A stretch of 7,429 nucleotides of DNA, taken from Candidatus Cloacimonadota bacterium. GTDB lineage: Bacteria; Cloacimonadota; Cloacimonadia; JGIOTU-2; B8-G9. Under the pieces are notes generated by a model, which had not been told where the DNA came from, made no database searches, and saw only the letters and a program-made list of their open reading frames with translations. Shown here piece after piece: positions 5,035 to 7,429 of the stretch (position 1 is its first letter; every line of letters begins with the position of its first letter). The stretch spans positions 1 to 7,429 of the forward strand of contig QMNM01000061.1 in NCBI GenBank assembly GCA_003647765.1. The letters are read 5' to 3'. A program made the position numbers and the translations under genes.

Positions 5035-5081
5035 AATAACAATACACCAATTGTTAGGTTAAAATTGAAAAAGTGATAAAT

Positions 5082-5126
5082 ATGAAACATAAATTTACAG
5101 CAGTTATAGAAAAAGAAGGTTCGTAA
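5082..5126 (+). pseudogene. Possible hicB antitoxin remnant (first 14 codons only)
   Basis: An ATG at 5082 opens a 14-codon frame reading MKHKFTAVIEKEGS before a stop. This matches the usual first strand of HicB-type antitoxins, which often begin KFTAVIEKEGDWYVA. No frame downstream in the 205-bp thiC-thiD spacer continues the family, and no HicA toxin is visible. I read it as a decayed or interrupted hicB start. A chance match of 14 codons or a short leader peptide before thiD remain possible. The rest of the spacer (5127-5239) shows nothing I recognise apart from an imperfect CTATAAAGT duplication at about 5138 and 5180. Confidence 0.4.
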
Positions 5127-5239
5127 GATTCTTGCTAACTATAAAGTGAATTTGCAGTATAACCCTTTATGTGAAAATGCTATAAAGTAGTAGCGACAAA
5201 TTAGTCAAATATACACTGCTAAAATAAGGTTATTTCCAA

Positions 5240-5985: not shown

Positions 5986-6076
5986 TAAGTGAGATTAGAC
6001 GCTAACCAAACACTAACTTTACAAACTCATCGCAAAATATAATTTCTAATTTTATAAAAAATGTGAAAAGGTTCAC
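5986..6076. repeat. Intergenic repeat, family 1, copy A (degenerate)
   Basis: The first 50 bases from 5991 match copy B at 7213-7262 in 47 positions, same orientation. Shared landmarks are GAGATTAGACGC, CTAACTTTACAAACTCATCG and a following A/T-rich stretch. The inverted arms seen in copies B and C have decayed here: only AACC (6004-6007) and GGTT (6070-6073) still pair. It lies in the 255-bp gap after thiD. Confidence 0.85.
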
Positions 6077-6123: not shown

Positions 6124-6207
6124 GAGTGAGATTTAGCCACAAACACGCAGATGACACAGAGAAGAAAAAGTAATAAAACTCCATGATTTCTGTGATTATG
6201 TGGCAAA
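6124..6207. repeat. Intergenic hairpin repeat, family 2 (GCCACA/TGTGGC arms)
   Basis: The left arm begins GCCACA at 6136 and continues as a CACGCAGATGACACAGAG-type sequence. The right arm ends TGTGGC at 6204 after TTTCTGTGATTA. The two arms pair imperfectly over about 24 bases around an A-rich centre. This resembles the widespread bacterial intergenic repeats with TTTAGCCACAGAG and CTCTGTGGC ends. It stops just before the ribosome site of the following gene. Its 5' end (AGTGAGATT, 6125-6133) is shared with family-1 copy A (5988-5996). Confidence 0.65.
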
Positions 6208-7205: not shown

Positions 7206-7305
7206 AGTTAAAGAGATTAGACGCGAACCAAACGCTAACTTTACAAACTCATCGCAAAAGATTTATAAAATGGATAAAAAATGTTCGCGTAAGTTCGCAT
7301 AGTTC
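7206..7305. repeat. Intergenic repeat, family 1, copy B
   Basis: This is the best preserved copy. Its left arm ACGCGAAC (7221-7228) is the exact reverse complement of GTTCGCGT (7283-7290), giving an 8-bp stem around 54 bases. The core at 7213-7262 matches copy A in 47 of 50 and copy C in 43 of 50. The 23 bases at 7283-7305 are identical to 7407-7429 in copy C. The 73 bases between the FGE-like gene and this copy (7133-7205) show no clear terminator or gene. Confidence 0.88.
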
Positions 7306-7309
7306 ATAT

Positions 7310-7335
7310 AAGTTCGCGATTGCAAGTTCGCGATT
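7310..7335. repeat. Short tandem duplication between repeat copies B and C
   Basis: AAGTTCGCGATT occurs at 7310-7321 and again at 7324-7335, a 14-bp period. The AGTTCGC core is also present at the right end of copies B and C, so this looks like an extension of the repeat's right arm. Confidence 0.8.
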
Positions 7336-7429
7336 AAGTAAGAGATTAAACGCGAACAAATCGCTAACTCAACAGACTCATCGCAAAGGATTTAATTTAT
7401 AAAAAGGTTCGCGTAAGTTCGCATAGTTC
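7336..7429. repeat. Intergenic repeat, family 1, copy C (runs to window edge)
   Basis: This is a tandem neighbour of copy B, offset by 129 bp at the core (7342-7391 against 7213-7262). Left arm ACGCGAAC (7350-7357) pairs exactly with GTTCGCGT (7407-7414), so the stem is kept although the enclosed sequence has diverged. The copy reaches the last base of the window, so the array may continue. Confidence 0.86.

Follow-up and report, generated by a model that had tools for sequence, protein, structure and literature searches.

A multi-copy intergenic repeat family of inverted, helically phased words in a Cloacimonadota genome

Small palindromic repeats of bacteria are usually classed as REPs or MITEs, and are presumed to act as hairpin or terminal inverted repeat (TIR) substrates. 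The ERIC (or IRU) element is imperfectly palindromic. About 127 bp in length, intergenic and dispersed, it is counted as a bacterial MITE, and its listed features are TIRs of 7 bp, TA termini and target-site duplications (PMC2229807). REPs of the GTAG and CGTC types are 20–40 bp in length, with stems of about 6–13 bp and a GTAG or CGTC tag, the stem of the CGTC REP being 8–9 bp; they are intergenic palindromes that are clustered and occasionally nested in other palindromes (PMC3733652).

The repeat described here is also intergenic. It is roughly 115 bases in length, and is built of a short word that recurs approximately every ten bases and is then inverted. The window analysed, of 7429 bases, is the entire contig C87 of a fragmented Cloacimonadota metagenome-assembled genome (MAG; 360 contigs, 1.97 Mb; completeness 88.8%). 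The genes around the repeat encode a C25 peptidase, an AIR-synthase-like protein, ThiC, a phosphomethylpyrimidine kinase and a protein with a sulfatase-modifying-factor (FGE) domain. Between thiC and the kinase gene there is a gap of ∼200 bp with no listed ORF (5041–5239). Short-sequence and topic text searches of open-licence PubMed Central papers found no published description or name for the architecture of the repeat.

Copies in the window and in the genome

The features of the repeat within the window are itemized in Table 1. The first-pass annotation had placed three copies here in one orientation, and A, B and C all lie at those positions, although A has lost its right arm. The core of B (G000:C87:7213–7326) is matched by the covariance model with 125.5 bits. 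B and C are identical at 43 of 50 core positions, exactly as first counted, and share the identical 23-base string GTTCGCGTAAGTTCGCATAGTTC (7283–7305 in B and 7407–7429 in C). This string had been taken as the right end of the element; in C it coincides with the end of the contig, and B continues beyond GTTCGCGATTGCAA. The two proposed stem arms ACGCGAAC and GTTCGCGT are present, but are paired differently from the original proposal, the outer partner of ACGCGAAC being the last GTTCGCG (7312 in B) and not that at 7283. The AT-rich loop differs in length and sequence from copy to copy.

Table 1. Features of the repeat in the 7429-base window
Feature	Position	Strand	Details
Copy A, left arm and loop; right arm decayed	5991..6075	+	
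Copy B, complete	7213..7333	+	nhmmer family profile; core 7213–7326, then one extra GTTCGCG word
Left arm of B	7222..7248	+	CGCGAAC 7222–7228, CGCTAAC 7233–7239, TACAAAC 7242–7248 (direct reading)
Inter-arm region of B	7249..7282	+	TCATCGCA and AT-rich loop
Right arm of B	7283..7332	+	GTTCGCG 7283, GTTCGCA 7293, GTTCATA 7302, GTTCGCG 7312, extra GTTCGCG 7326
B-to-C linker	7334..7341	+	context GCGATTAAGTAAGAGATTA; present in most arrays
Copy C, tandem to B, cut at contig end	7342..7429	+	start-to-start 129 bp

In the interval from copy A to the FGE gene there is a second, decayed palindrome (6136–6204; GCCACAAACACGCAGATGACACAGAG...CTGTGATTATGTGGC). It contains the words CACAAAC, CGCAGAT and CACAGAG, and its matches elsewhere in the same genome are weak.

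The suggestion that the family extends beyond this locus is borne out, the copies being genome-wide, intergenic and of REP/MITE-type size. BLAST against the genome of origin returns 55 matches with E-values down to 9.4e-66, and an iterated nhmmer profile finds ∼54 non-overlapping copies of at least 29 nt, the complete ones mostly of 100–125 nt; the repeat is thus far beyond chance. Further decayed copies are added by the covariance model. The copies are either solitary or form direct tandem arrays with a period of about 110–130 bp, found on contigs C230, C281, C24, C109, C179, C288, C33 and C199 in addition to B and C of C87. About twenty copies touch a contig end (counted by eye), suggesting that the assembly was interrupted by the repeats at those points. 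With arrays merged there are 41 separate places in the genome, nearly all of those inspected being intergenic. At 21 places the repeat and its downstream gene are co-directional and at 6 they are opposed (p 0.006); no bias was seen for the upstream gene in the same set of 41 places.

The left end of the element reads (A)GATTA[G/A]ACGCGAAC and the right end GTTCGCG[TC/AT]TGCAA, beyond which one or two additional 14-bp GTTCGCG words often occur. Integron attC sites (tandem repeats with GTT/AAC ends) were considered and rejected, because the ends, judged by eye, do not fit RYYYAAC/GTTRRRY. The repeat has no match in phages, plasmids or IMG/VR. The right-arm pattern of the CGCNAAC family has zero matches in the GTDB r220 contigs, and this dialect is therefore known from this genome only. 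A different word dialect, typically CACAAAATTACACGAAAAAACACAAA, has ∼50 matches in the same genome (for example C9:3183–3218, C2:18229 and C24:1796).

Words, phasing and base pairing

The conserved unit is a 7-bp word, CRCNAAC, that recurs at intervals of 9–11 bp in one arm and is inverted in the other. Each arm comprises three or four words, the order being inverted about an AT-rich centre. Across the family the spacing is 9, 10 and 11 bp in 39, 66 and 23 intervals respectively, with the extra end words at 14 bp. In copy B the start-to-start distances are 11 and 9 bp in the left arm, and 10, 9, 10 and 14 bp in the right, where Tandem Repeats Finder independently reports a period of 10 with the unit GTTCGCATAA (7283–7317). 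The most variable word position across copies is the fourth (0.143), followed by the second (0.106; G/A), giving the consensus C-R-C-N-A-A-C. Most of the changes at word centres within the family are C to T or G to A in a CpG context, and mutation bias may contribute in part to the variation at the fourth position.

In 26 full copies the mean column identity is 0.88 and 0.93 in the two arms and 0.48 in the loop, so that the arms are far better conserved than the drifted loop, as had been proposed from B and C. What is conserved in the ‘stem’ is the set of words in inverted order, rather than stem pairing as such. A check for compensatory change in the same 26 copies finds three pairs altered on both sides, compared with 3.2 in shuffles; the covariation scores of the family and of its shuffles are 0.064 and 0.063, and RNAalifold detects no covariation in the family. 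The window copy folds no better than its dinucleotide shuffles (DNA z −0.18, RNA z 0.52), and the folding z-scores of other copies in the genome range from 0.55 to −3.2. The elements of related genomes, chosen with a stem-containing model, are strong hairpins (z about −6 to −7), and the hairpin may have a role in these.

Related elements at orthologous places lead to the same view of the words. One pair (genomes G002 and G008) lies before the isoleucyl-tRNA synthetase gene, and a second (G016 and G008) beside a GxxExxY-type gene, both genes being named by eye. In the two pairs all four substitutions within intact words fall on the centre base, and none is compensated in the other arm. Cross-arm complementarity in Cloacimonadota elements is 22/74 at word centres and 44/111 at linkers, compared with 26.3 and 50.1 in shuffles; in Treponema and others it is 91/132 and 96/198 (shuffles 91.6 and 92.6). 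The Acidobacteria MAG alone shows matched linkers (219/261, against 203). The elements are therefore palindromic because the words are laid in inverted order, with centres and linkers that in Cloacimonadota, and in Treponema and others, are complementary no further than in shuffles. The conservation of words and helical phase without that of cross-arm pairing separates the hairpin idea from the word idea, and points to a protein.

In the G008 element before ileS (L074/L187) a palindrome, TTTACCCTGTGAAATAA...TTATATTTCACGGGGTAAA, sits inside the word element, and the G002 counterpart is intact. In L151 and L211 it is the word element that lies inside a similar palindrome, giving palindromes nested in palindromes.

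Relatives in the order, the phylum and beyond

When a covariance model trained solely on the present copies is run on same-order genomes, it recovers relatives that are weak but clear; the best, in G002, has E 6e-8. These relatives share the layout, with the word CACNAAC and usually three words per arm; in these model-picked elements the spacing is 10 bp in 38 of 42 intervals. A third dialect, CGCAGAT/CACTGAT, occurs in genome G001. The pattern CCACNAACNNNCACNAAC gives 51 matches, spread over 6 of the order's 18 genomes; the reversed control gives none. A looser pattern, CRCRRA three times at 10 bp, is matched in 17 of these 18 genomes. Across the phylum 65 of 103 genomes match it, and hardly any matches are seen for the reversed control. 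The genome of origin has 53 matches to the looser pattern, mostly of the CACAAA/CACGAA dialect.

The two-arm pattern occurs in at least 120 stretches of the GTDB r220 contigs. Among the matches listed are Cloacimonadota, many termite-gut Treponema MAGs, Candidatus Lindowbacteria, an Alphaproteobacteria MAG, Asticcacaulis sp. AC460 and others, together with one Acidobacteria MAG that has dozens of copies. Isolated single hits, for example in Microbacterium and Chloroflexi, look like chance, and the three-word pattern is not matched in the Chloroflexi genome. The CACNAAC hairpin pattern has no match in IMG/VR. The family studied here is one dialect of a superfamily, the dialects across genomes being CACNAAC, CGCNAAC, CACGAAT, CACGGAT, CACAGAT and CGCAGAT.

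Counts of the looser three-word pattern are patchy even between siblings, with 39, 36 and 19 matches in some members of genus g11 against 0, 0 and 0 in others, and 55 against 0–5 in genus g10. Gain and loss of a mobile element would give such a distribution; a changed word dialect, rather than loss, could account for part of it. Some elements occupy orthologous places across genera, and thus not all can be recent insertions.

In the Acidobacteria MAG (RPQK01 contigs) the word elements are centred in inverted repeats that are longer and specific to each locus, with unique flanks mirroring one another over ∼19–66 bp (L140, L161:1987–2053, L178, L197, L229, L239:2176–2245 and L240), and some of these are mismatched and far from contig ends. 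Perfect mirrored cases at contig ends (L155, L173 and L216) may be fold-back assembly artefacts.

Candidate explanations and comparison with known systems

On balance we favour a non-autonomous intergenic family, resembling MITEs or ERIC in size and placement, whose phased, inverted CRCNAAC words are most likely read by a putative DNA-binding protein, the likeliest candidate being a transposase or recombinase. The functional unit would be the 7-bp word, placed about one helical turn from the next and read on double-stranded DNA, and several copies of the protein might align along a single face of the helix, to either side of the AT-rich centre. The candidate transposase or recombinase would spread the elements in trans, and the direct tandem arrays may have grown locally, probably by unequal exchange or replication slippage. 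The family would then work like a non-autonomous mobile element or a multi-site protein target. Of the possibilities raised by the first-pass annotation it is thus the protein-binding site that we infer, given that the words are kept without cross-arm pairing. The proposed rule of recognition is simple and testable (CRCNAAC every 10 bp, inverted), and the patchiness in siblings offers a presence–absence route to the partner protein.

The words could instead be fixed, non-mobile sites of a nucleoid-structuring or regulatory protein that have been duplicated and are kept by selection. Constraint at the level of the word without base-pair constraint fits this, as do the orthologous placement conserved between genera and the co-directional downstream genes. 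We consider it unlikely, however, since a range from dozens of elements to none within one genus, and occurrence in unrelated phyla, resemble spread rather than housekeeping.

Somewhat less probable again is an ordinary MITE of a DDE-type insertion sequence with TIRs, having an autonomous partner that is outside the assembly or lost. The family has the expected form, being 109–125 bp in length, AT-rich and without an ORF, with an imperfect terminal inverted repeat (A)TTAGACGCGAAC / GTTCGCGTCTGCAA. Yet target-site duplications do not exceed background, the longest word shared by the flanks having a mean of 5.85 compared with 5.84 for mismatched flanks. Moreover the arms are arrays of words rather than one terminal repeat, and no transposase-like gene family recurs beside the elements among the 1253 ORFs of the loci fetched, in a genome divided into 360 contigs.

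Mobilization in trans by a RAYT (TnpA_REP, Y1_Tnp), as for REPs and REPINs, had also been put forward, and is improbable. The family is intergenic and palindromic with BIME-like clustering, and 17 of the 18 genomes in the order have Y1_Tnp genes, as do 13 of the 22 in the sibling contrast. The genome of origin has one such gene above threshold, but it lacks the ends of this repeat beside it. Its 3′ flank carries a different, classic REP-type hairpin, GTAG-CCCAGTCG-TTTA-CGACTGGG, and there is no copy of the repeat in the flank on that contig, the 5′ flank ending at the contig end. A second REP, GTAG-AACGACCTTNNAAGGTCGTT, is represented by six exact cores in the genome, and all five of those inspected have GTAG at the foot. 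GTAG REPs are thus separate from the family, and one of them (GTAGAACGACCTTCCAAGGTCGTT) is inserted in a copy of the repeat at the junction of left arm and loop (G000:C33:1280–1430; L028/L055). GTAG is absent from both ends of the family, and a CGTC string is found at the right end of only part of the copies (GCGTCTGCAA compared with GCGATTGCAA); moreover the unit of ∼115 bp is not the 20–40 bp of a CGTC-tagged REP. Membership of the REP/REPIN class was therefore rejected, with neither GTAG nor a similar tag at the foot of a short hairpin and no repeat in the RAYT flank. Among the Y1_Tnp loci of relatives inspected, only two have at least two word pairs in the fetched flank, one of them ∼1.4 kb away. 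Nor does the number of RAYT genes follow that of the elements (siblings rho 0.23, p 0.29; order rho 0.44, p 0.07).

Finally, a structured RNA element or terminator within transcripts is most improbable, for despite the orientation bias toward the downstream gene and the strong hairpins of relatives, there is no covariation, the window copy folds like its shuffles, and the window has no Rfam match (three weak hits all score below the gathering threshold and lie elsewhere).

If the preferred reading of phased words recognized by a protein is extended to the relatives, they might tentatively be placed in one cross-phylum class of elements that is defined by architecture and not by sequence. Its members would be inverted arrays of bipartite C-R-C-N-R-A words one turn apart, in genome-specific dialects, each with a putative reader of phased words on double-stranded DNA instead of a hairpin or single terminal repeat. 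The breadth over phyla suggests one overlooked mobilizing or DNA-organizing system that may shape intergenic DNA in many uncultured bacteria. No known mobilizing enzyme could be linked to the word elements.

Compared with described systems, the family is a short, non-coding repeat with many dispersed intergenic copies and imperfect inverted ends, as in MITEs, but departs from these in showing no excess of target-site duplications. ERIC is alike in size and layout, as compared by description only; here the ends are word arrays, no duplication is seen and direct tandem arrays are common. RUP, Correia/NEMIS and Nezha are likewise non-coding and AT-rich, of about 100 bp, with imperfect terminal inverted repeats, but have a single, insertion-sequence-like TIR and target-site duplications, neither of which is seen in the repeat. 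The likeness to GTAG/CGTC REPs, BIMEs and REPINs lies in being intergenic, palindromic, clustered and sometimes nested; the repeat is 3–5 times longer than REPs, is built of phased words and has no GTAG tag, and true GTAG REPs coexist with it. The layout is shared with the CACNAAC elements of same-order genomes such as NIOZ-UU1, AUK079 and CSMAG_1562, of termite-gut Treponema and of the Acidobacteria MAG, in which words 10 bp apart are inverted around a loop. These differ from the repeat in having CACNAAC instead of mainly CGCNAAC words, an exact 10-bp spacing and stronger hairpins.
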